In this document: in pieces, positions 44,197 through 60,105 of the stretch
How the letters are laid out: every line of letters begins with the position of its first letter
Numbering within the stretch: the stretch's first letter is position 1
Origin: Acidimicrobiales bacterium
Lineage (GTDB): Bacteria; Actinomycetota; Acidimicrobiia; Acidimicrobiales; AC-9
DNA: 60,105 nt
Reading direction: 5' to 3'
NCBI GenBank assembly: GCA_036491125.1
Contig: DASXCO010000017.1
Span: forward strand, 1 to 60,105
Translations under genes and position numbers: made by a program
Notes under the pieces: generated by a model
Told to the model about the DNA's origin: nothing
What the model saw: only the letters and a program-made list of their open reading frames with translations
Databases searched by the model: none

Positions 44197-45009
44197 ATGG
44201 CCTCTGGAGTCGGCCTGTCCGTACTGGAGGTGACCGTCCAGTTCGGCGGCCTCACCGCCCTGGACGCCGTGTCTCTCGAAGTTGAGACGGGCGAGGTCGT
44301 CGGGGTCATCGGCCCCAACGGGGCGGGCAAGACGACCCTTTTCAACGTGATTTGCGGCTTTGTGCGACCGAGCCACGGACACCTCGAGTATCGCGGCCAG
44401 CGGATCCGCCCCCGCCCGTCCCGACTGCGCACCCTCGGCATCGCCCGGACCCTTCAGAGCGTCGGCCTCTGGCAGGGGTTGAGCGTCATCGAGAACGTCA
44501 TGGTCGGGAGCTCGGGGGGACGGTGGGGGGGCTTCGCCTCTTCCCTGCTCGGACTCCCGCCTTCGGATCACCGCGACCGCGCCGTCCGCGCTAGGGCGAT
44601 GGAGCTCTTGGACGAGCTCGGGATCGCTGAGACAGCAGACCGGTATCCGGGTGCGCTCGCCTATGCCGTCCAGAAACGGGTGGCACTGGCGCGAGCCCTG
44701 ATGACCGAGCCCACACTGCTGTTGCTCGACGAGCCGGCGAGCGGCCTCTCCGATGCCGAGATGAAGACATTGGGCGATCGTCTGCGGGCTCTCGGCCAAC
44801 GCATGGGCGTTCTCCTCGTCGAGCACCACATGGATCTCGTCATGTCGGTGTGCGACCGCATCGTGGTGCTCGACTTCGGCCGGGTCATCGCCACGGGCAG
44901 CCCCGAGCGGATCCGATCCGACCCGGCCGTCACCGAGGCCTACCTCGGCGAGGAGATCAGCGACGACAGCGCGTCCGACACCGCCACCAGGTCCGACGAG
45001 CATGCTTGA
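44197..45009 (+). CDS. livG: Branched-chain amino-acid-type ABC transporter ATPase, LivG-like
   Basis: 270 residues. Walker A G-P-N-G-A-G-K-T, Walker B L-L-L-L-D-E-P and H-loop V-E-H-H-M-D-L-V define a LivG-type ATPase. The ABC signature reads L-A-Y-A-V-Q-K-R-V, where LivG usually has L-x-Y-G-x-Q; the Gly is Ala. The C-terminal tail is acidic. It should work with LivF, LivH and LivM. GAGAAT lies 6 nt before the ATG. The 3-prime end overlaps livF by 8 nt. Confidence 0.9.
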   Translation: MASGVGLSVLEVTVQFGGLTALDAVSLEVETGEVVGVIGPNGAGKTTLFNVICGFVRPSHGHLEYRGQRIRPRPSRLRTLGIARTLQSVGLWQGLSVIENVMVGSSGGRWGGFASSLLGLPPSDHRDRAVRARAMELLDELGIAETADRYPGALAYAVQKRVALARALMTEPTLLLLDEPASGLSDAEMKTLGDRLRALGQRMGVLLVEHHMDLVMSVCDRIVVLDFGRVIATGSPERIRSDPAVTEAYLGEEISDDSASDTATRSDEHA

Positions 45010-45709
45010 GATCCGCGATCTGTCGACGGCCTACGGCCCCGTCCTGGCCCTCGACAAAGTGTCGTTCGACGTCGCAGACGGCACCATCACCGCCGTCCTG
45101 GGGGCCAACGGGGCGGGAAAGACGACGCTGCTCCGCACCATCAGCGGCCTGGTACGCCCGAAAGAAGGGTCGGTGACCTACGGGGGCCGCGACCTCACCC
45201 GCATGAGCGTCGAGGACATCGTGCGCCTCGGCATCGCCCACGTCCCCGAGGGAAGGGGCGTGATCCAGGAGCTGACCGTCGAGGAGAACCTGCGACTCGG
45301 ATCCCTGTGGAGACGCGACCGGGGTGACCGGTACCGCGCCCTCGACGAGGTCTACGAGCTCTTCCCGCCGCTGGCGGGGCGCCGGAGTCAATCGGCGTTC
45401 ACACTCTCGGGCGGCGAGCGCCAGATGCTGGCCCTCGGCCGGGCCCTCATGGCCAGACCGCGGGCACTCCTCCTGGACGAGCCGTCACTGGGGCTGGCGC
45501 CGCTGGTGACCGCCCAGATCATGGGCCGCCTCCGCCAGCTGACCCAGGGGACCGAGATGACCATCCTGCTCGTCGAGCAGAACGCCCGCAGCGCCCTGTC
45601 GATCGCCGACCAGGCCGTGGTGCTGTCCCTCGGCCGAGTCGTGCTCCTCGACCAGGCCAGCGCCGTCGCCGGGAACGCCGAGCTCCGTCATCACTACCTC
45701 GGCTTCTGA
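45002..45709 (+). CDS. livF: Branched-chain amino-acid-type ABC transporter ATPase, LivF-like
   Basis: 235 residues. Walker A G-A-N-G-A-G-K-T, signature L-S-G-G-E-R-Q-M-L-A-L-G-R-A-L, Walker B L-L-L-D-E-P-S-L-G-L-A-P and H-loop region V-E-Q-N are all intact. Typical LivF partner of LivG. Overlaps livG by 8 nt, so translation is coupled. Confidence 0.93.
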   Translation: MLEIRDLSTAYGPVLALDKVSFDVADGTITAVLGANGAGKTTLLRTISGLVRPKEGSVTYGGRDLTRMSVEDIVRLGIAHVPEGRGVIQELTVEENLRLGSLWRRDRGDRYRALDEVYELFPPLAGRRSQSAFTLSGGERQMLALGRALMARPRALLLDEPSLGLAPLVTAQIMGRLRQLTQGTEMTILLVEQNARSALSIADQAVVLSLGRVVLLDQASAVAGNAELRHHYLGF

Positions 45710-45710
45710 G

Positions 45711-45720
45711 GGGGGATAAA
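45711..45720 (+). promoter_or_regulatory. GGGGGATAAA, second copy of the LAL/Liv motif
   Basis: Exact 10-mer also at 44111-44120, here in the 48-nt gap between livF and livH. It may be a half-site of the same regulator or chance in a G-rich region. Confidence 0.35.
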
Positions 45721-45757
45721 GAAGACGACCGACCCGCGCCAGTGACTGGAGGCTGAC

Positions 45758-46636
45758 ATGCACCGTTTCGTGTCCTTCACCCTCGACGGGATCACGAACG
45801 GCATGATCTACGCCGCCGTCGCCATGGCCCTGGTGCTGATCTGGCGGGCCACCCGGATCGTCAACTTCGCCCAGGGGGCGATGGCCATGGTGACGACCTA
45901 CGTGGCCGTCAGCCTCGTCGACCGGCACGTCTCCTACTGGTTCGCCTTCACGGTGGCGCTCGTCGCCGGGCTGGTGCTCGGGGCCCTGGTGGAGAGGACG
46001 CTCATCCGTCCCGTGGAGAACAAGTCGCCCCTCGTCCACATCATCGTCACCCTGGGCCTGCTCGTCGCCTTGGAGGCGGGTGCGGGGTTGATCTGGGGCG
46101 GACGGTTCCGGTCGTTCCCGGCTCCGTTCTCTATCGTCGGGCTCAAGGTGGGACGAAGCCAGATCGCGCTGTCGCCGTTCGACATCTTCACCATCGCTGC
46201 CGTGGTCGTCGTCATGGTCGGCTTGCTCGTGCTCTTCCATCGAACGGCGGTGGGACTGCGCATGCGGGCGGCCGCCTTCGAGCCCGAGGTGGCCCGACTC
46301 CTCGGGGTGCGCGTCGGACGGGTGCTCACCCTGGGCTGGGCCCTGGCGGCCCTGGCCGGCTCGCTGGCCGGCCTCCTGGTGGCGCCCAAGCTGTTCCTCT
46401 ATCCCAACAACATGGACGCCGTCCTCGTCTTCGGGTTCACGGCCGCCATCCTGGGCGGCCTCGACAGCCCCGTCGGCGCCCTGGTGGGTGGGCTCGTCAT
46501 CGGGCTCTCGCTGAGCTACGTCGGCGGCTACCTGGGCTCCGACACCGAGTCGATCGGCGCCTTCGTGATCCTGATCGTCGTCCTGATGGTCCGGCCCGGC
46601 GGCCTGTTCACCCGCGTCAACCCGAGGAGGGTGTGA
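45758..46636 (+). CDS. livH: Liv-type ABC permease, LivH-like
   Basis: 292 residues with about eight membrane helices. D-G-I-T-N-G-M-I-Y-A at the N-terminus, N-F-A-Q-G-A-M-A-M, E-R-T-L-I-R-P and G-L-D-S-P-V-G-A match LivH. Forms the membrane channel with LivM. 48 nt after livF with the GGGGGATAAA motif, 3 nt before livM. Confidence 0.92.
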   Translation: MHRFVSFTLDGITNGMIYAAVAMALVLIWRATRIVNFAQGAMAMVTTYVAVSLVDRHVSYWFAFTVALVAGLVLGALVERTLIRPVENKSPLVHIIVTLGLLVALEAGAGLIWGGRFRSFPAPFSIVGLKVGRSQIALSPFDIFTIAAVVVVMVGLLVLFHRTAVGLRMRAAAFEPEVARLLGVRVGRVLTLGWALAALAGSLAGLLVAPKLFLYPNNMDAVLVFGFTAAILGGLDSPVGALVGGLVIGLSLSYVGGYLGSDTESIGAFVILIVVLMVRPGGLFTRVNPRRV

Positions 46637-46639
46637 GCC

Positions 46640-47701
46640 ATGACGACACCCACGGACCGCCGCGCCGCCGCCCCGACGCCGGTGAACCGACGGCCACCCG
46701 ACTGGCTGCGGCTGCCGCGTCAGACGCTTCTCCGCCACCTCCTGCTCGCCGTCGTCGTGGGCCTGTTGCTGTTCTGGCTCAGCGACAACGTCGGCGCCTT
46801 CACCGACCTCCAGCTCAGCAACGTGGCCGCCTACGCCATCGCCCTGGCGGGGCTCACCGTGCTGACGGGGCACAACGGCCAGCTCTCGCTCGGCCACGGT
46901 GCCTTCATCGCCATCGGCGCCTACAGCACCGGGCTGATCCTCGAGCACACCTCCCTGCCCATCATCGTCGTGATCCTCGCCGCCATGGGCGTGACGGCGG
47001 TCGCCGGCGCCATCGTCGGGATCGCCGCAGCCCGCCTGCGAGGTCCCTACCTGGCGGGCGCCACGCTGGCCCTGGCCGTCGCGCTCCCGTCGGTGGCCAT
47101 CAAGTGGTCGTCGATATTCGGTGGCGAGCAGGGCATCACCGTGAATCCCCTGGCCCCTCCGACCTCGCTCGGCCTGGCCTTCCCACCGGAGCGCTGGGTC
47201 GCCTGGCTCGCCCTGTTGGCGGCCCTGATCGTGCTCGTGCTGCTCGCCAATCTTCTGCGGAGCCGGGTCGGACGTTCATTCCGGGCGGTGCGGGACGACG
47301 AGATCGCTGCGTCCCTGGCGGGGGTGCACGTCGCCCGGACCCAGGTGCTCGCCTTCGTCGTCAGCGCCGCCTGCGCCGGGGTGGCCGGAGCCTTCTTCGC
47401 CTTCAACGTGCAGCTCGTCGCGCCCGCCGGATTCCCGCTGACGCTGTCGATCGCCCTGGTGACGGGCATCGTCGTGGGCGGGATCGGGAGCCTCGTGGGC
47501 GCCGTGTGGGGCGGCATCCTGCTCGTGTACCTGAACCAGGAGGCCACCGACCTGGCCAAGCACTTCCACGTCTCGGCTGCGGCAGGCGCCAACGGGGCCC
47601 TGCTCGCCTACGGGGTGCTGCTGATCGCGGTGATGCTGGTCTTCCCCGACGGGATCCAGGGGGGAGTTCGCCGGCTGGTGAGGTTAGTAACGAGACAGTA
47701 A
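46640..47701 (+). CDS. livM: Liv-type ABC permease, LivM-like
   Basis: 353 residues, about nine membrane helices. L-T-G-H-N-G-Q-L-S-L-G-H-G-A-F and R-A-V-R-D-D-E-I-A-A-S are LivM hallmarks. Second permease of the transporter; starts 3 nt after livH. Confidence 0.92.
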   Translation: MTTPTDRRAAAPTPVNRRPPDWLRLPRQTLLRHLLLAVVVGLLLFWLSDNVGAFTDLQLSNVAAYAIALAGLTVLTGHNGQLSLGHGAFIAIGAYSTGLILEHTSLPIIVVILAAMGVTAVAGAIVGIAAARLRGPYLAGATLALAVALPSVAIKWSSIFGGEQGITVNPLAPPTSLGLAFPPERWVAWLALLAALIVLVLLANLLRSRVGRSFRAVRDDEIAASLAGVHVARTQVLAFVVSAACAGVAGAFFAFNVQLVAPAGFPLTLSIALVTGIVVGGIGSLVGAVWGGILLVYLNQEATDLAKHFHVSAAAGANGALLAYGVLLIAVMLVFPDGIQGGVRRLVRLVTRQ

Positions 47702-47787
47702 CGGTGATATTACGATCAGGTGCCAGTGACAAACTGCCACTTGCCGGTGCGCAGCGCCGACGGGTCTCGCTGGTGAAAGAAGGGGCC

Positions 47788-49101
47788 ATGAGCCAGACCG
47801 GTCAGGGTCGTGTTCGAGTCGGGTTCAGGCGAGCGATGGCACCAGTGGTGGTGGCGTGTGTCATCGCCCTCGTCGCCGCGGCCTGCGGGGGCGGGTCATC
47901 GAACTCCTCTACGTCCTCCTCGGGTGGCGGCGGCGCCAACACCGCCTCGGCCACGGGGATCACCGCCACCAACATCACCATCGGCAGCCACCAGCCCCTC
48001 ACCGGGGTGGCCGCCCCCGGCTACGACGAGATCGCGCCGTCCTCGAAGGCGCTGTTCGACGACGTGAACGCCCACGGCGGCGTGAACGGCCGCAAGATCA
48101 CGTACACCTACCAGGACGACGCCTACAACCCGACCCAGACCGCCACGGTCGTGCGCAGTCTCGTCCTCCAGGACAACGTCTTCGGCATCTTCAACGGGCT
48201 GGGCACGCCGACCCACCTCGCCGTGCAGCAGTTCCTCAACACCGAACGGGTGCCCGACCTGTTCGTGGCCTCGGGTTGCGACTGCTGGAACAACCCGAGC
48301 AAGTTCCCCTACACCTCCGGTTACCAGACCGACTACACCGTCGAGGGCAAGATCACCGGCCAGTACATCAAGAACAACTTCGCCGGGAAGAAGGTCGGCT
48401 ACCTCTACCAGAACGATGACTTCGGCCAGGGCGGGGTCCAGGGCCTCGATCAGCAGATCCCCAAGTCGTCGGTCGTGAGCCGCCAGAACTACGTGCCGAC
48501 CAACCTCGACGTCGGACCCCAGGTGGCCGCCCTCCAGTCTTCCGGTGCCGAGGTGGCCGTGCTCTACACCGTTCCTCCCTTCACCGCCCTCACCCTCGCG
48601 GCGGCGGCGAAGATCGGGTACCACCCGCAGTGGGTGACATCGAGCGTGAGCGCCGACCCGACCACGCTGAGCGGGCTGCTGAAGGGCTCGTCGATGCTCG
48701 AGGGGCTCGTCACGAGCTCGTACCTGCCCTCGACATCGGACACGTCCAACCCCTGGGTCCAGACCTTCAAGCGGATCCACGACCAGTACGTCCCCAACCT
48801 GCCCTTCGACGGCAACACGCTCTTCGGGATGGGGGTGGCGTACACATTCGTGAAGCTCATGCAGCAGGCCGGCACCAACCCGACCCGCCAGAGCGTCATC
48901 AGCGCCCTGAAGACCGCCAACCTGGCCGGCCCCGGCCTCGTCCCGCTCAACTACTCCTCCGCATCGGGCTACACGGGAGTGCAGATGGGCAGCATCCACG
49001 GGGGCCAGCTGACCTTGAGCGGCCCCCGCTACACGGCAACCGACAACGGGCCGATCGGGACCTTCAACGGCGCCCAGCCCGCCCCGCCACCCAACCTGTA
49101 G
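47788..49101 (+). CDS. livK: Liv-type substrate-binding lipoprotein, LivK-like
   Basis: 437 residues, Peripla_BP_6 fold. Signal peptide with lipobox A-A-A-C (Cys33) and a Gly/Ser-rich linker. I-T-I-G-S-H-Q-P-L-T-G starts the binding domain, with the paired lobes G-K-K-V-G-Y-L-Y-Q-N-D-D-F-G-Q-G typical. The substrate is not deducible; amino acids, amides or short organic acids are all known. An 86-nt gap to livM holds AT-richer sequence with TATTACGAT, possibly an internal promoter. The start follows AGGGG. Confidence 0.92.
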   Translation: MSQTGQGRVRVGFRRAMAPVVVACVIALVAAACGGGSSNSSTSSSGGGGANTASATGITATNITIGSHQPLTGVAAPGYDEIAPSSKALFDDVNAHGGVNGRKITYTYQDDAYNPTQTATVVRSLVLQDNVFGIFNGLGTPTHLAVQQFLNTERVPDLFVASGCDCWNNPSKFPYTSGYQTDYTVEGKITGQYIKNNFAGKKVGYLYQNDDFGQGGVQGLDQQIPKSSVVSRQNYVPTNLDVGPQVAALQSSGAEVAVLYTVPPFTALTLAAAAKIGYHPQWVTSSVSADPTTLSGLLKGSSMLEGLVTSSYLPSTSDTSNPWVQTFKRIHDQYVPNLPFDGNTLFGMGVAYTFVKLMQQAGTNPTRQSVISALKTANLAGPGLVPLNYSSASGYTGVQMGSIHGGQLTLSGPRYTATDNGPIGTFNGAQPAPPPNL

Positions 49102-53784: not shown

Positions 53785-56700
53785 TCAACGAAAATCCCGT
53801 GACGGGGTCGACGAGCCGACGATGAGCGACAGAGGGGAGATGCGGTCGGCGACCACGTTGACGACCCCTTCGACACGCTCCAGGCGGCCACGGACGAGCA
53901 GGGCGGGCGCCGACCGGGCCGCCTGGCGGTAACGGCTCCAGGCGCCTTTCGAGCAGACGACGTTGATGAGACCGGTCTCGTCCTCCAGGTTCAAGAAGGT
54001 CGTGCCCCCGGCCGTCGCCGGGCGTTGGCGGTGGGTGACCACGCCGCCGACCAGGACCCGGCTGTCGGGCTCGGCACGGGCGAGCCCCGCTGCCGTCGTC
54101 GCGCCCCACGCGTCGAGCTGGTCGCGGACGAGCTCGATGGGATCGCCGGTGGGTGACATCCCCGTGGCCCACAGGTCGGCGGCCATCTCCTCCGCCGTCG
54201 TCATGTCGGGCAGGGCGGGAGCCCGGGCTCCGACCACCACCCCATCAAGGCGATCGGGGGTGGCCTGAGACACGGCCCCCGCGGCCCACAGCCCCTCCCG
54301 GCGCGTTCGATCGGGGAGGGCACCCGCAGTCGCCAACGCCTCCAGCTGCGCCCGGGACACGCCCGTGCGCCGCACCAGGTCCTCCATGTCGGCATAGGGC
54401 CGGCCGGCGGCGATGCGCTCCGCCATCTCCAGCCCGATGGTGCGCACGTACTCGAGACCGAGCCGCACGGCCGGTCGATCCGGCTCGACAGCAAGCCGCT
54501 CCGTCCCCAAGCCCGCCTCCCGGGCCGGCTCCAACGTGGCCTGGGCCGGGCTGGCGTTGACATCGGCCCGCCGCACCTCCACGCCGTGGCGGCGGGCGTC
54601 GGCCACCAACGTCTTGGGCGACCAGAAGCCCATGGGCTGGGCATTGAGCAAGGCGGCACAAAAGGCTGCCGGAAAGTGGTGCTTGATCCACGCGCTGGCA
54701 TAGACCAGGTAGGCGAAGGACACCGAGTGGCTCTCGGGGAAGCCGAAGTTGGCGAAGGCGGCCAGCTTCTCGTAGATGGCGTCGGCGACGTCTCCGGTGA
54801 TGCCCCGCGCCGCCATCCCCTCGTAGAGTCGGGCCCGCAGCCGTTCCATGCGCTCGCCGGAGCGCTTCGAGCCCATGGCCTGGCGCAGCTGGTCCGACTC
54901 GGCGCCGGTGAAACCGGCCACGTCGATGGCCATCTGCATGAGCTGCTCCTGGAACAGGGGCACCCCGAGGGTCTTCTCCAACGACGGCTCGAGCAGCGGA
55001 TGCAGGTAGGTCGCCGGCTCGAGCCCGTTGCGCCGGCGGATATAGGGATGAACCGATCCACCCTGGATGGGACCCGGCCTGATGAGGGCCACCTCCACCA
55101 CGAGGTCGTAGAAGTGGCGGGGCTTGAGCCTGGGCAGGGTGGCCATCTGGGCCCGACTCTCGACCTGGAAGACACCCACGGTGTCGGCCCGGCACAGCAT
55201 GTCGTAGACCGCGTCCTCCTGGGGGAGCTCGGCCAGGTCGACCTCCACCCCGTGGTGGTCGCGGACCAGGTCGATGGCCCGGTGGATGGCGTTGAGCATC
55301 CCCAGACCCAGCAGGTCGAACTTCACCAGGCCGACGGCGGCGCAGTCGTCCTTGTCCCACTGCAGGACGCTGCGGCCTTCCATGCGCGCCCATTCCACCG
55401 GGCACACCTCGACCACGGGCCGGTCGCAGATGACCATGCCGCCCGAGTGGATGCCGAGGTGGCGGGGGAAGTTCTCCACCTGAGCAGCCAGCCCCATGAC
55501 CGGCTCGGGGATGTCGTGGGCCGACCGGCCGTCCGGACCCACGGCGCCGGCCGTGGCCTCGAGTGGACCCCACCGTTCGATCTGCTTGGACCAGGCGTCC
55601 AGCTGGCCGGACGCGTGGCCAAGGGCCTTGCCCATGTCGCGCACGGCCGAGCGGGCCCGGTAGGTGATGACGTTGGCGACCTGGGCGGCGTTGTGGCGGC
55701 CGTAGCGCTCGTACACGTGCTGGATGGCCTCCTCGCGCCGATCGCTCTCGATGTCGATGTCGATGTCCGGAGGACCGTCGCGTTCGGGGGAGAGGAAGCG
55801 CTCGAACAGCAGGCCCAGCGAGACGGCGTCGGCGTTGGTGATGCCGAGGGCGTAGCAGACCGCCGAGTTGGCAGCCGACCCCCGCCCTTGACAGAGGATG
55901 CCCCGCCGCCGGCAGAACTCCACGATGTCCCACACCACGAGGAAGTAGCCGGGAAAACCCAGCCCCTCGATGACCGACAGCTCGCGATCCAGCTGCGCGT
56001 AGGCACCCGGCACCCGCTCGGCGCCCCGAGGACCGTAACGACGCGCCGCTCCCCGCTCGGTCAGCTCGACCAGCCAGCTCATCTCGGAATGACCCGGCGG
56101 CACCGGGAAGTCGGGCAATCGGGGGGCGACCAGCCGCAGGTCGAACGCGCACTCCCTTCCCAGCTCGGCGGCCCGCTCCACCACGCCGGGATAGCGGGCG
56201 AACCGCCGGGCCTGCTCCCTCCCCGAGCGCAGGTGGGCGCCGGCTGCCGCCGGCAGCCATCCCTCGATCTCGTCCAGCGATCGCCGGGCCCGCACCGCAG
56301 CCAGGGCGGTGGCCAGACCCCGCCGGGCGGGGGTGGCGTAGTGCACATTGTTGGTGGCGATCAGCTCCACGCCGTGGGCCAGGGCCAGGTTGGCCAGGGC
56401 GTCGTTGCGGGCGGTGTCCAGCGGGTCGCCGTGGTCCCACAGCTCCACCGCCAGGTTGCCGCGGCCAAAGGCGTCTGCCAGCCGACCCAGGGCCCGCCCC
56501 GCCGCCGTGGGGCCCGATTGGACCAGCGCCGTCGGGACCTCACCTTTGCGACAGCCGGTGAGCACCATCCAGTGATCCCCGTGGGCCTCGGCCAGGGTGG
56601 TCAGGGACACGATCGGCTGGCCCTTCTCCCCCCCGGCCAGGTGGGCCTCGCTGACGACCCGGCACAGCCGGGCGTACCCCTCGGGGTCGCGGGCCAGCAC

Positions 56701-57234
56701 GACGAGATGGTGGCCCTCGGGATCGGCGGCGGCCTGGCGGTGGCCCATGGTGCCGGCGGGACCAGGACGGCGGCCCTTGGGTCGTCCCCCGGTCTGCGGT
56801 GCTGGTCGAGCCAGGTCGAGGGTGAGCTCGGTCCCGAAGACGGCGGGCACACCGAGCGCCTCGGCGGCCTCGGCGAAGCGGACCACCCCGTACATGCCGT
56901 CGTGATCGGTGAGGGCCAGCGCCTCCAGGCCGAGCCGGTCGGCCTCCTCGACCAGCTCCTCGGGGTGCGACGCTCCGTCCAGGAAGCTGAAGTTCGAGTG
57001 GCAGTGCAGCTCGGCGTAGGGAATCGGGGCGTCGCTCCGCCGCCGCTTCGCGCCGGTGGCACTACTTCCGGGGCCGGCCTCCCGGGACGGCTGCGGGGGG
57101 TGGTAGGGCTGGCGCTTGCGGGACCAGGCCGGGCTGTCGCCTCCGTCGGCGTGGTCCGGGCGGTTGGGCGGCCGGCCGTCGGACAACCGGCGCTCGAGCT
57201 CGGACCAGGGGATCGGAGGGTTGCGCCAACCCAT
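53785..57234 (-). CDS. dnaE2: Error-prone DNA polymerase III alpha subunit (ImuC)
   Basis: 1149 residues. PHP domain at the N-terminus (A-E-L-H-C-H-S-N-F-S-F-L-D-G-A, L-T-D-H-D-G-M-Y-G), the C-family palm with the acidic triad region P-D-I-D-I-D-I-E and G-R-G-S-A-A-N-S, tandem HhH and a C-terminal OB domain (V-L-V-G-G-V-V-T-H-R-Q-R-P). The short size and lack of the tau/epsilon-binding tail set DnaE2 apart from DnaE1. It does translesion, mutagenic synthesis with ImuA/ImuB, neither of which is in this window. A perfect LexA box precedes it. TAGGGT 6 nt before the ATG implies a leaderless mRNA. Confidence 0.95.
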   Translation of the reverse strand: MGWRNPPIPWSELERRLSDGRPPNRPDHADGGDSPAWSRKRQPYHPPQPSREAGPGSSATGAKRRRSDAPIPYAELHCHSNFSFLDGASHPEELVEEADRLGLEALALTDHDGMYGVVRFAEAAEALGVPAVFGTELTLDLARPAPQTGGRPKGRRPGPAGTMGHRQAAADPEGHHLVVLARDPEGYARLCRVVSEAHLAGGEKGQPIVSLTTLAEAHGDHWMVLTGCRKGEVPTALVQSGPTAAGRALGRLADAFGRGNLAVELWDHGDPLDTARNDALANLALAHGVELIATNNVHYATPARRGLATALAAVRARRSLDEIEGWLPAAAGAHLRSGREQARRFARYPGVVERAAELGRECAFDLRLVAPRLPDFPVPPGHSEMSWLVELTERGAARRYGPRGAERVPGAYAQLDRELSVIEGLGFPGYFLVVWDIVEFCRRRGILCQGRGSAANSAVCYALGITNADAVSLGLLFERFLSPERDGPPDIDIDIESDRREEAIQHVYERYGRHNAAQVANVITYRARSAVRDMGKALGHASGQLDAWSKQIERWGPLEATAGAVGPDGRSAHDIPEPVMGLAAQVENFPRHLGIHSGGMVICDRPVVEVCPVEWARMEGRSVLQWDKDDCAAVGLVKFDLLGLGMLNAIHRAIDLVRDHHGVEVDLAELPQEDAVYDMLCRADTVGVFQVESRAQMATLPRLKPRHFYDLVVEVALIRPGPIQGGSVHPYIRRRNGLEPATYLHPLLEPSLEKTLGVPLFQEQLMQMAIDVAGFTGAESDQLRQAMGSKRSGERMERLRARLYEGMAARGITGDVADAIYEKLAAFANFGFPESHSVSFAYLVYASAWIKHHFPAAFCAALLNAQPMGFWSPKTLVADARRHGVEVRRADVNASPAQATLEPAREAGLGTERLAVEPDRPAVRLGLEYVRTIGLEMAERIAAGRPYADMEDLVRRTGVSRAQLEALATAGALPDRTRREGLWAAGAVSQATPDRLDGVVVGARAPALPDMTTAEEMAADLWATGMSPTGDPIELVRDQLDAWGATTAAGLARAEPDSRVLVGGVVTHRQRPATAGGTTFLNLEDETGLINVVCSKGAWSRYRQAARSAPALLVRGRLERVEGVVNVVADRISPLSLIVGSSTPSRDFR

Positions 57235-57342: not shown

Positions 57343-58602
57343 GTGCTGCGACTCGTCCGGCGCCCACTTGCCGTCAGCGTGATCCTCGCCGGCCTCTCCT
57401 GGGGCCTGGCCGCGTGCGGCCAATCCCCCCCGACACTGCGCCTCGGCGCCGTCTTCCCGCTGCACGGATCGCAGGCCCCCTCGGCGACCGAGGAGTGGCG
57501 GGGCGTGAAGATCGCCGCCGACCTCGTCAACCAGGACGGCGGAGTGAGGGGTCAGCGCATCGCCCTGGACGTGCGAGACCTCGAGACACGAGAGGGCGCC
57601 GCCAAGGCCGTCGCTTCATTGCACGACGACGGCGTCCCGCTGGTGCTCGGCGCCTACTCGTCGCAGCTGTCGATCCCGGCTGCGGTCGCGGCCTCGGACT
57701 CTCGCCTCGTCTACTGGGAAGCGGGAGCCGTCGCCGATCGCGTCACCGGGCAGGGCTCGCCCTGGGTGTTCCGAGTGGGGGCGACGGGCTCGAACCTCGG
57801 CACCAACTCGGCCCGCTTCGCCGCCACGCAGCTGGTGCCGCGCCTCGGGCTGGCGCCGTCGCAGACGCGCGTGGCGGTCGTCTGGGAGAACGACGCCTAC
57901 GGGCAGTCGGTGGCCGACGCCGCCGTCACAACGGCTCAGTCGTCCGGCCTCCAGGTAGTCGGCCGCACGGCGTACGACGCCTACAAGCCCGACTGGCCCT
58001 CGGTGATGGCACAGGTGGCCGCGGCTCACCCGGACGTGCTCGTCCTGGCCTCCTATATCCCCGACGGCGAGGGCTTCCGCCGGGCCATGCTGGCCGAGCA
58101 CGTCCGGGTGGGGGCCATGATCGGCTCCAGCATGGCCGAGTGCATGAGCAACTTCGGCGACGACCTCGGTCCACAGGCCGTCGGGGTGTTCGCGTCAGAC
58201 CGCCCGGGCGGCGGCTTCAACCCAGGCGCCCTGGGCTCGATCGGGGCACGTGACTACGCGCGCTTCGCCGCCGCCTGGAAGGCCCAGACCGGCGACGCCA
58301 CGCCAGACGAGGAGGCGTTGGCCGGGTTCAGCGCCGCCTGGGCCTTGTTCCATTACGTCCTGCCCAAGGCCCACACGTTCAGTCCCCGCGACATCGCCGC
58401 CGCCGCCCGGCAGACGATGCTGGCCGAGGGCGAGCTACCCAACGGCGCCGGGCTCCATTTCGCCAATGACCGATCTCGCGAGGGGCAGAACCTTCTCGCC
58501 GCCGCCGTCATCTGGCAGTGGCAGGCCGTGGGCCACAGCGTCGTCGTCTGGCCGCCCGCCTACGCCACGGGCGCGCCGGCCATGGTGCCGCTGCCGGCGT
58601 GA
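57343..58602 (+). CDS. Orphan Liv-type substrate-binding lipoprotein
   Basis: 419 residues. Signal with lipobox L-A-A-C (Cys25) and Peripla_BP_6 fold: L-R-L-G-A-V-F-P-L-H-G-S, D-L-V-N-Q-D-G-G-V-R-G-Q-R-I, V-A-V-V-W-E-N-D-A-Y-G-Q-S-V. No permease or ATPase adjoins it, so it is either an extra receptor for the Liv system or a sensor. GTG start at 57343. Its stop overlaps the start of the CPBP protease as GTGA. Confidence 0.88.
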   Translation: MLRLVRRPLAVSVILAGLSWGLAACGQSPPTLRLGAVFPLHGSQAPSATEEWRGVKIAADLVNQDGGVRGQRIALDVRDLETREGAAKAVASLHDDGVPLVLGAYSSQLSIPAAVAASDSRLVYWEAGAVADRVTGQGSPWVFRVGATGSNLGTNSARFAATQLVPRLGLAPSQTRVAVVWENDAYGQSVADAAVTTAQSSGLQVVGRTAYDAYKPDWPSVMAQVAAAHPDVLVLASYIPDGEGFRRAMLAEHVRVGAMIGSSMAECMSNFGDDLGPQAVGVFASDRPGGGFNPGALGSIGARDYARFAAAWKAQTGDATPDEEALAGFSAAWALFHYVLPKAHTFSPRDIAAAARQTMLAEGELPNGAGLHFANDRSREGQNLLAAAVIWQWQAVGHSVVVWPPAYATGAPAMVPLPA

Positions 58603-59207
58603 GCCAGCCCGGGAGGCTGGCCCAAGGGCAGAGCGTTGTCGCCCGCCGGCGCACGAACGCCGGCGCGCTGCTCGTCGTCCTGGGCGCGGCGCTCGTGCTG
58701 CGCCTTGTCGTCGCCGGGGCAGCCGGCGCCGCGTCGGAGCTCGGCGCGGCGCTGTTCGCCGTGCTGTTGATTTGCGCTGCGGCCGCAGCGGGGTGGCGCC
58801 CTGATCGCCTGCGGCTGAGCGGCCTGGCTTGGGGAGTCCTGGGCGCCGTGGGCCTCGTGGCGGGGCCGGTGCTGCTGCGGCTGGCCGGACCGCACCCGGC
58901 GCTGCAGGCGGCGGATGGGTTTCCGCTCTGGGCCGTGATCGTGACCGGCGTTGCCCTCGGCGAGGAGCTGCTGCTGCGCGGCGCCCTCTTCGCCGCCGTC
59001 GACGAGGCCGTGGGCGTGAAGACGGCGCTCGTCGTCACGACCATCGTCTTCGCTCTCGTGCACGTCCCGCTGTACGGGATGCACGCGCTGCCGCTCGACC
59101 TGGCCGTCGGTCTGTGGCTCGGTGGGCTGCGCGTCGTGAGTGGCGGGGTCACGGCGCCGGCGACGGCGCACGTGGTCGCCGACCTGGCCGGCTGGTGGCT
59201 CTGGTGA
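58599..59207 (+). CDS. CPBP-family intramembrane metalloprotease (Abi/CAAX protease type)
   Basis: 202 residues, about seven hydrophobic segments. The catalytic E-E-L-L-L-R at 122-127 and the His motifs F-A-L-V-H-V-P-L-Y-G and T-A-H-V-V-A-D define the family, metal-dependent proteases inside the membrane linked to prenyl-protein processing, bacteriocin immunity or signalling. GTG at 58599 overlaps the lipoprotein stop; its own stop overlaps the next start. Confidence 0.87.
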   Translation: MSQPGRLAQGQSVVARRRTNAGALLVVLGAALVLRLVVAGAAGAASELGAALFAVLLICAAAAAGWRPDRLRLSGLAWGVLGAVGLVAGPVLLRLAGPHPALQAADGFPLWAVIVTGVALGEELLLRGALFAAVDEAVGVKTALVVTTIVFALVHVPLYGMHALPLDLAVGLWLGGLRVVSGGVTAPATAHVVADLAGWWLW

Positions 59208-59908
59208 CCCGCGTCAAGGTCGGGCTGGGGGCGCTCGTAGTAGCGGCGACGTTGCTCGTTGTCTTCTGGACCACCCGGGGGTGGGACGCCGGTCCGCCGA
59301 TCTACGACGGGCTTCCGCTCCAGACCGAGCCCTACCGGTACCTGCAGCCCGCGCCCGGACAGGCCACCACCGCGCCCCCGACCTCGGCCTCAGTGAACGT
59401 CAAGCCGTCGAACCAGGGTCTGCCGTTCATCGCCAACACCAACGAGTCGCCGCCTCAGGCCGAGCTGCAAGCCGATCCCACTGCCTTCGCCATACCGCCG
59501 TCGGTGCAGAACCTGACGATCACGATCACTCCCGTTCCCCCGGCCGCGCCGATCCCGAACGGCCGGCTCGACGGCAACTCCTATCGCATGTCGGTCCTGC
59601 TGCCGGGAGGCGTTCCCGTCGCCGTCCTGCCGGGCAAGCACGTCACCGTGTTCCTGCGCGGCACCGGCGCCAGCGGCAAAACGGTCATGGACCGCTTCAG
59701 CGCCGGCCGCTGGTCTCAGTTGCCGACCCAGGTCCCGGGCGCCGGCTTCCACAGCGCCGACTCCGACCAGCTCGGTGACTTCACCCTGGTGCTGCTGCCC
59801 GGAGGCGCCGGCGGGCTGAGCGGCGGGGTCCGCGCCGCCATCGTCGTGGCGGCGGTCCTGGTGGTGATTGGTCTACTCCTCTTCGCGGTGCGGCGGCTCC
59901 GTCATTGA
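59204..59908 (+). CDS. Bitopic membrane protein with extracytoplasmic domain
   Basis: 234 residues. N-terminal helix at about 5-22, a Pro/Thr-rich external region, a strand-rich domain (Q-N-L-T-I-T-I-T-P-V, Y-R-M-S-V-L-L-P-G-G, V-T-V-F-L-R-G-T-G, D-F-T-L-V-L-L-P-G-G) and a C-terminal helix at about 207-226 followed by R-R-L-R-H. I recognise no family. GTGA coupling to the CPBP gene suggests a partner or substrate of the protease. Confidence 0.78.
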   Translation: MTRVKVGLGALVVAATLLVVFWTTRGWDAGPPIYDGLPLQTEPYRYLQPAPGQATTAPPTSASVNVKPSNQGLPFIANTNESPPQAELQADPTAFAIPPSVQNLTITITPVPPAAPIPNGRLDGNSYRMSVLLPGGVPVAVLPGKHVTVFLRGTGASGKTVMDRFSAGRWSQLPTQVPGAGFHSADSDQLGDFTLVLLPGGAGGLSGGVRAAIVVAAVLVVIGLLLFAVRRLRH

Positions 59909-60013: not shown

Positions 60014-60105
60014 ATGGTCTCCCCCACCCTGATCCTCGCCCACGCCTTCGGGGCTCGCTACGACCTTCCGGTTCCGCTCTACCTCTTCGTCCTGGGTGGT
60101 GCCGC
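60014..60105 (+). CDS. Start of a membrane protein gene (runs off right edge)
   Basis: ATG 60014 gives M-V-S-P-T-L-I-L-A-H-A-F-G-A-R-Y-D-L-P-V, then P-L-Y-L-F-V-L-G-G-A. The phrase Y-D-L-P-V-P-L-Y-L-F resembles the start of an actinobacterial multi-helix membrane protein of unknown function. About 30 residues are visible; start choice uncertain. Confidence 0.5.
   Translation, partial: MVSPTLILAHAFGARYDLPVPLYLFVLGGA

Follow-up and report, generated by a model that had tools for sequence, protein, structure and literature searches.

A conserved gene trio of a Liv-type binding lipoprotein, a CPBP protease and a bitopic protein with a predicted GAIN/ZU5-like domain

Three adjoining genes on the plus strand of an uncultured soil bacterium form a conserved module, the linkage of which is kept across phyla through changes of gene order. 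In the window (the whole stretch of 60,105 nucleotides that was analysed) they encode a Liv-type (Peripla_BP_6) binding lipoprotein at 57343-58602 (GTG start, TGA stop, 419 aa), a CPBP (Rce1-like) glutamic intramembrane protease at 58599-59207 (GTG start, TGA stop, 202 aa) and, at 59204-59908, a bitopic protein of 234 aa, which has no Pfam family and a predicted GAIN-B/ZU5-like ectodomain. The first-pass annotation had described the three as overlapping by GTGA stop/start codons, and both the coordinates and the overlaps (58599-58602 between genes 1 and 2, 59204-59207 between genes 2 and 3, plus strand) proved exact. Four-base overlaps are common rather than rare in such genomes, which favours the view that the genes are chance neighbours, or part of a general operon, with no joint function. 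What exceeds chance is not the overlap but the linkage of the trio as conserved in other genomes.

Both other genomes examined of the same family carry the trio in an order identical to that of the window. A genome of another family in the same class has all three genes in the order bitopic-binding-CPBP, with 39, 53 and 42% identity to the window, respectively, in alignments of the proteins. A wider set of 58 loci, which contains near-identical pairs, was collected with the binding-protein profile and two binding-protein motifs as patterns, and its trio genes were called by iterated profiles of the three proteins over all open frames (gaps were taken from the furthest upstream start, which overstates the overlaps at these loci). 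Judging by their record titles, they come from Actinobacteria, Chloroflexi, Dormibacterota, Limnocylindrales and ANGP1, among others, and nearly all are metagenome-assembled. A contiguous same-strand trio is present in 37 of the 58 loci, in four arrangements: binding-CPBP-bitopic (19), CPBP-binding-bitopic (10), bitopic-binding-CPBP (6) and bitopic-binding-CPBP-bitopic (2). Six loci have the binding and bitopic genes in one chain with CPBP not there, a single one (L039) has CPBP and binding protein without the bitopic gene, and in 14 the binding protein is alone in its chain. Among these 14, L027 and L035 carry the other two genes nearby on the opposite strand, L038, L065, L075 and L076 are situated at or close to contig ends, and 8 remain alone. 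Along the binding-protein tree the arrangement state changes at least 15 times, losses counted in.

The linkage was also viewed from a second anchor, the profile of the bitopic protein, searched against 396 genomes from the same phylum, with matches accepted up to E 1e-6. The protein was found in 29 genomes (the window's own counted), at 18 trio loci, 5 loci with CPBP and bitopic genes, 2 with binding and bitopic genes and 4 with neither partner. Both loci of the third kind, which are without CPBP, are at contig edges; of the partnerless ones, one is at a contig edge and three (L132-L134) are weak matches (E 1e-7 to 1e-11), which are counted in the 29 and are perhaps not family members. Another weak match, in G172, was dropped, its frame being opposite to an apparent conserved biosynthetic gene (judged by eye). 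The two locus sets overlap, L112-L117, L019 and L022 apparently being also in the first. As a control, ten trio genomes were surveyed, with 36 Peripla_BP_6 and 38 CPBP matches: a CPBP match lies no further than about 0.4 kb from the trio binding protein in 10/10 cases, compared to 0/26 within 1 kb for the other Peripla_BP_6 proteins, and in one non-trio case the CPBP gene is ~2.3 kb off (G331 contig 18). The window's genome has 2 CPBP matches and 19 Peripla_BP_6 matches, 16 of them above cut-off. Conserved linkage, the 0/26 control and the order changes on the tree in the main refute the view of chance neighbours, which is left highly improbable. The first-pass annotation had named a lack of conservation of the three as neighbours as one refuting outcome; the three are clearly kept together across phyla despite changed order.

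Within the module the bitopic protein is the hub, since it is found paired with just CPBP and, elsewhere, with just the binding protein, while CPBP and binding protein occur without it once in 58 loci. Of the six genomes with CPBP and bitopic pairs, G321 has a trio-family binding protein elsewhere, and the other five have none at E 1e-40 (an absence that is less sure in G502 and G164, which are fragmented); two trio genomes, searched as positive controls, were found as expected. Because some genomes have the pair but no trio-family binding protein, the pair looks like the core. The same five genomes, together with a few loci that have binding and bitopic genes and no CPBP gene in view, contradict the earlier proposal of a fixed-ratio complex, as far as this is meant to be obligate. 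At one locus (L018 7533-9704, minus strand), three tandem bitopic paralogues lie beside binding protein and CPBP genes.

The product of gene 2 scores 47.7 bits against PF02517 (Rce1-like/CPBP), above the curated cut-off of 22.4. CPBP proteins have motifs of the forms EExxxR, FxxxH and HxxxN/D. All three were followed in an alignment (A7) of 41 sequences (40 of 42 references plus the window, with near-duplicates and fragments removed by hand): motif 1 is EELLLR (58962-58979, plus strand; E122 40/41, E123 and R127 41/41), motif 2 is F-A-L-V-H (59049-59063, plus strand; F151 40/41, H155 41/41) and motif 3 is H191...D/N195 (59169-59183, plus strand; H191 41/41, position 195 being D in 27 and N in 14 of 41). 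In the bitopic-anchored set the motif residues are kept in 21-22 of 22. Such conservation bears on a non-proteolytic assembly, in which CPBP would be the membrane scaffold for the bitopic protein and the lipoprotein, serving either to capture solutes or to chaperone the assembly of CopCD or oxidase. Non-protease CPBP proteins do exist, SpdC and LnsB being described, in the part of the source cited, as lacking the catalytic residues (PMC7387801). The trio CPBPs, unlike SpdC and LnsB, keep all motif residues and do not have the divergence of LnsB there, and a scaffold is therefore quite unlikely. The nearest named families are the Mrt processing proteases, at scores below their cut-offs: MrtS (a C-terminal processing protease) of NCBIfam is among the matches of 41/41 CPBPs, and the protein of the window reaches 27.2 of 130 bits for MrtS, 23.3 of 100 for Mrt_core and 22.3 of 75 for MrtJ.

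For the bitopic protein, profile and family comparison of the sequence gave no Pfam or NCBIfam family, a single-sequence scan of genome contigs found no relative, and its profile matched PDB sequences at chance level only; the lead on its family came from structure prediction alone. In the AF2 model (pLDDT 89.5), helices 4-25 and 207-233 enclose a beta sandwich. Transmembrane helix 1 (59213-59278, plus strand; hydropathy peak at residues 4-22) is followed by a stalk, P-x-Y-D-G...P-Y-R-Y-x-x-P (residues 31-49; 59294-59350, plus strand). Its Y-D-G...P-Y-R-[YW] stretch is among the best-conserved regions in the 43 aligned proteins (A6; 42 of 51 references plus the window, near-duplicates and fragments removed by hand), with D35 in 40, G36 in 39, Y44 in 43 and P49 in 42. 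The sandwich (residues 45-200; 59336-59803, plus strand) resembles GAIN-B and ZU5 domains in both Foldseek and VIA-align. Foldseek's best match, and the sole one below 0.001, is 4dlo, the GAIN domain of BAI3 (E 5.4e-4), with ankyrin ZU5 as runner-up. VIA-align gives Z 11.4 for 4dlo (141 aligned, 3.7 A) and Z 10.8 for the ZU5 structure 3f59 (124 aligned, 3.0 A), with unrelated rows below both at Z ~6. The Pfam GPS and ZU5 models match 0/43 of the proteins at E 0.01. Of the earlier description, a two-helix protein with an ectodomain of no recognised family, the two hydrophobic helices and the absence from Pfam and NCBIfam stand, while the fold does have a match in GAIN-B/ZU5.

The sandwich ends in L190-G191-x-[FY], which is the counterpart of the GAIN cleavage site (GPS) by motif, not by coordinates (L190-G191 at 59771-59776, plus strand). 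The GAIN cleavage consensus is HL/(S,T) (PMC3776922), whereas here the place of the nucleophile is taken by glycine (G191) in 41/43 proteins, with no conserved His two residues before. According to the cited parts of the same paper, the autoproteolytic site is missing in many adhesion GPCRs too, and GPS regions without cleavage are still under selection and relay protein contacts (PMC3776922). The model thus predicts a GAIN-B/ZU5-like ectodomain next to the membrane from which the cleavage-site residues are missing.

Transmembrane helix 2 (59822-59902, plus strand) and a basic end complete the protein. A simple hydropathy rule calls helix 2 in 40/43 bitopic proteins and helix 1 in 39/43, and the cytoplasmic tails are short and basic, with no signalling or effector domain seen. 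The three aligned proteins without helix 2 are short, at 195-205 residues (L025 7902-8486, L027 6156-6770, L035 6180-6785), and in L027 and L035 their genes sit directly after a CPBP gene. These features bear on constitutive, sortase-like maturation, in which CPBP, in the manner of a myxosortase, would make a single cut in the C-terminal helix of the bitopic protein, which once mature would be a surface dock for the lipoprotein with no ligand control. Such maturation would agree with the Mrt proteases as nearest named families (MrtS in 41/41) and with the succession of ectodomain, linker, helix and basic tail in 40/43, which is like the tripartite MYXO-CTERM layout as given in the cited part of PMC11980579. 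It is made rather unlikely by scores far under the family cut-offs (27 vs 130 bits for MrtS), by the lack, in the aligned proteins, of any conserved Cys motif before helix 2, such as myxosortase substrates have ahead of their helix and Arg-rich tail, by the absence of that helix from some members and by a pairing that is 1:1 rather than with many substrates.

The binding lipoprotein scores 112.2 bits against PF13458 (Peripla_BP_6; cut-off 31.7) and has the lipobox LAAC (Cys25; 57406-57417, plus strand, by pattern match), which bears out the identity assigned to it at first reading, as the PF02517 score and EELLLR do for the CPBP. Its AF2 model (pLDDT 89.6) is best matched in VIA-align by 8wch, a structure in complex with L-pyroglutamate (Z 41.8 over 375 residues), a match that at 20% identity leaves the ligand of the trio unnamed. 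The position of the Liv ligand loop is occupied by the signature W-E-[AT]-G-A-V (residues 125-130; 57715-57732, plus strand). In an alignment (A8) of 43 sequences (42 of 60 references plus the window, near-duplicates and fragments removed by hand), E126, G128, A129 and V130 are present in 43/43 and W125 in 41/43, a conservation that is partly built in, since A8 was partly fetched with W-E-x-G-A-V as pattern; the signature is also found in 18/18 full-length members of the bitopic-anchored set, which was fetched without that pattern. Further, S107, E126, D184, Y211 and D286 are kept in 43/43 and Y186, D241 and C267 in 42/43 of A8, and all of these in 18/18 of the full-length bitopic-anchored members. 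The invariant residues of the pocket region suggest one conserved ligand. Presumably, S107 and D241 (via the 4n0q alignment) are at the places that hold the ligand carboxylate and amine in Liv proteins, which makes an amino-acid-like ligand a fair guess.

The lipoprotein had been called an orphan without transporter. This holds for the trio and the genes directly beside it (no ABC permease or ATPase adjoins the trio in the window), but a complete Liv transporter operon with two ATPases, two permeases and its own binding protein is present at 44197-48933 (plus strand), ~8.4 kb upstream and separated from the trio by other genes and a DnaE-type polymerase gene; use of the trio's binding protein by this operon as well is conceivable. 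Two trio-family binding proteins are found in true Liv loci (L049 7296-11671 and L055 7890-12247), where a single protein combines the permease and ATPase domains. An origin of the trio as replacement of a Liv transporter was considered but dropped, as the two Liv-linked relatives nest among trio members in an unrooted tree, which gives no direction. Another reading has CPBP acting on the lipoprotein (maturation or lipid tailoring), assisted by the bitopic protein. In its favour, N-acylation of lipoproteins requires LnsB, which is distantly related to CPBP proteins, and copper is considered as a selective pressure on that system (PMC7387801). LnsB lacks the motif residues kept in the trio CPBPs, however, several relatives of the binding protein have no lipobox in their first 60 residues (e.g. 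L024, L025, L027, L030), and some genomes that lack the binding protein have CPBP and bitopic genes as a pair, all of which makes this reading very unlikely.

The surroundings of the trio were tallied in 64 loci, where DUF4399-type lipoproteins (22), CopC-CopD (21), a GW-x-x-EP protein (14), Fur (14), CtaG (12), a membrane protein following the trio (12) and response regulators (10) recur; of the 29 bitopic-anchored loci, 21 have DUF4399 and 13 CopCD. The CopC/CopD, CtaG and Fur context is not visible from the window but is seen in other loci, and in the window's own genus no CopC/CopD adjoins the trio. In Bacillus, CopC-CopD (YcnJ) is described as taking part in copper import in support of respiratory oxidases, and CtaG in copper trafficking is the topic of a section of the same source (PMC13344008). 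Whether copper physiology is the setting of the trio is an evenly balanced matter. As to the neighbours themselves, the GW-x-x-EP protein is secreted and adjoins CopC-CopD (L070 1672-2349 and 13 other loci), and Pfam gives no family for the L070 copy. The multi-helix membrane protein that recurs after the trio often precedes CtaG; its gene starts at 60014-60105 (plus strand) in the window, where it is truncated by the contig end, and a full copy (L007 6524-7969) has no Pfam match either. Upstream, the trio is flanked by the DnaE-type polymerase gene (53785-57234, minus strand), and in a related genome (G002) an impB/mucB-type polymerase gene, which another gene precedes (L007 4200-6521), lies on its other side; the trio has the look of an insertion into an ImuA-ImuB-DnaE2 mutagenesis cassette (ImuA by eye, the other two by Pfam).

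Taking ligand-controlled and constitutive versions together, CPBP probably cuts the bitopic protein. The favoured reading, held tentatively at a little under an even chance, is a membrane processing module in which CPBP processes the GAIN-like protein, with the ligand-bound lipoprotein as optional control. CPBP and the bitopic protein would be the core enzyme-substrate pair, to which their occurrence without the binding protein in 5 genomes points, and the bitopic protein would be cut in or near a membrane helix once CPBP gains access. The lipoprotein, a putative two-lobed small-molecule binder related to the binding proteins of Liv transporters, would dock in its ligand-bound form on the outer domain or stalk of the bitopic protein and so control the access of CPBP; that it gates the cutting is somewhat less than evenly probable. 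Because the tails on the cytoplasmic side are short and basic and carry no signalling domain, the cut product would probably act at the membrane, and, given the CopC/CopD and CtaG neighbours, the module would most likely serve copper acquisition or delivery to respiratory oxidases. Conserved linkage, kept CPBP motifs, MrtS matches, a GAIN/ZU5-like fold directly before helix 2, invariant pocket-region residues and copper neighbours count for the ligand-controlled reading. Against it count the helix-2-less bitopic proteins, the six binding-bitopic loci without CPBP, the window's genus without CopC/CopD beside the trio and the cytoplasmic side, where no effector domain is seen. A more specific version is doubtful, namely that CPBP, a lipoprotein of the Venus-flytrap type and a bitopic protein with an uncleaved GAIN-like domain make up a split receptor, gated by ligand and signalling through intramembrane proteolysis, which controls the import of copper or the metalation of oxidases in uncultured Actinomycetota and Chloroflexota. 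If true, bacteria would have a CPBP protease under ligand control and a juxtamembrane switch of the GAIN type.

For most CPBP proteases of bacteria neither substrate nor signal is known, and the linkage of the trio across phyla points, within a single compact unit, to a likely CPBP substrate and a possible small-molecule control. The same linkage puts a GAIN/ZU5-like domain, of a kind that relays signals in adhesion GPCRs, directly next to a bacterial intramembrane protease, and ties the trio to copper-handling genes of uncultured soil lineages. The parts are of known kinds; neither their combination nor the trio itself was found in the open-access literature searched, by which absence in print is not proven.

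Compared to known systems, the recurrence of CopC-CopD and CtaG genes beside the trio recalls copper import by YcnJ/YcnI and CtaG-dependent oxidase assembly in Bacillus, the account of which, in the part cited, names no CPBP, binding protein or GAIN-like protein (PMC13344008). LnsAB lipoprotein N-acylation likewise links a CPBP-like membrane protein to lipoproteins, with copper discussed, but LnsB is described in the cited part as lacking the CPBP motif residues (PMC7387801). In predicted fold and in its place before a membrane helix, the bitopic protein is like the GAIN domains found in adhesion GPCRs and the ZU5 domains that occur in ankyrin, UNC5 and bacterial surface proteins (for the last, see the relevant part of PMC3482391), from which it differs in lacking the HL/(S,T) residues and any Pfam match and in being bitopic rather than a GPCR. 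The lipoprotein shares fold and family with Liv/HAAT binding proteins, and two relatives (L049, L055) are beside Liv permease/ATPase genes, whereas the trio is not followed by permease or ATPase genes and its ligand loop is altered to W-E-x-G-A-V. With myxosortases (MrtX, MrtS, MrtJ), the trio has in common the CPBP fold and motifs and a candidate substrate with a C-terminal helix and basic tail; scores under the cut-offs, no Cys signature, one dedicated partner and an extra binding protein set it apart. PrsW/RsiW, RseP/RseA and RsgI are examples of regulated intramembrane proteolysis with a juxtamembrane ectodomain. Unlike these, the trio has a CPBP instead of S2P/PrsW, a separate ligand-binding lipoprotein in the operon and no anti-sigma or other cytoplasmic domain, but it resembles such proteolysis in combining a membrane protease with a single-span or bitopic partner that has a folded outer domain near the membrane.
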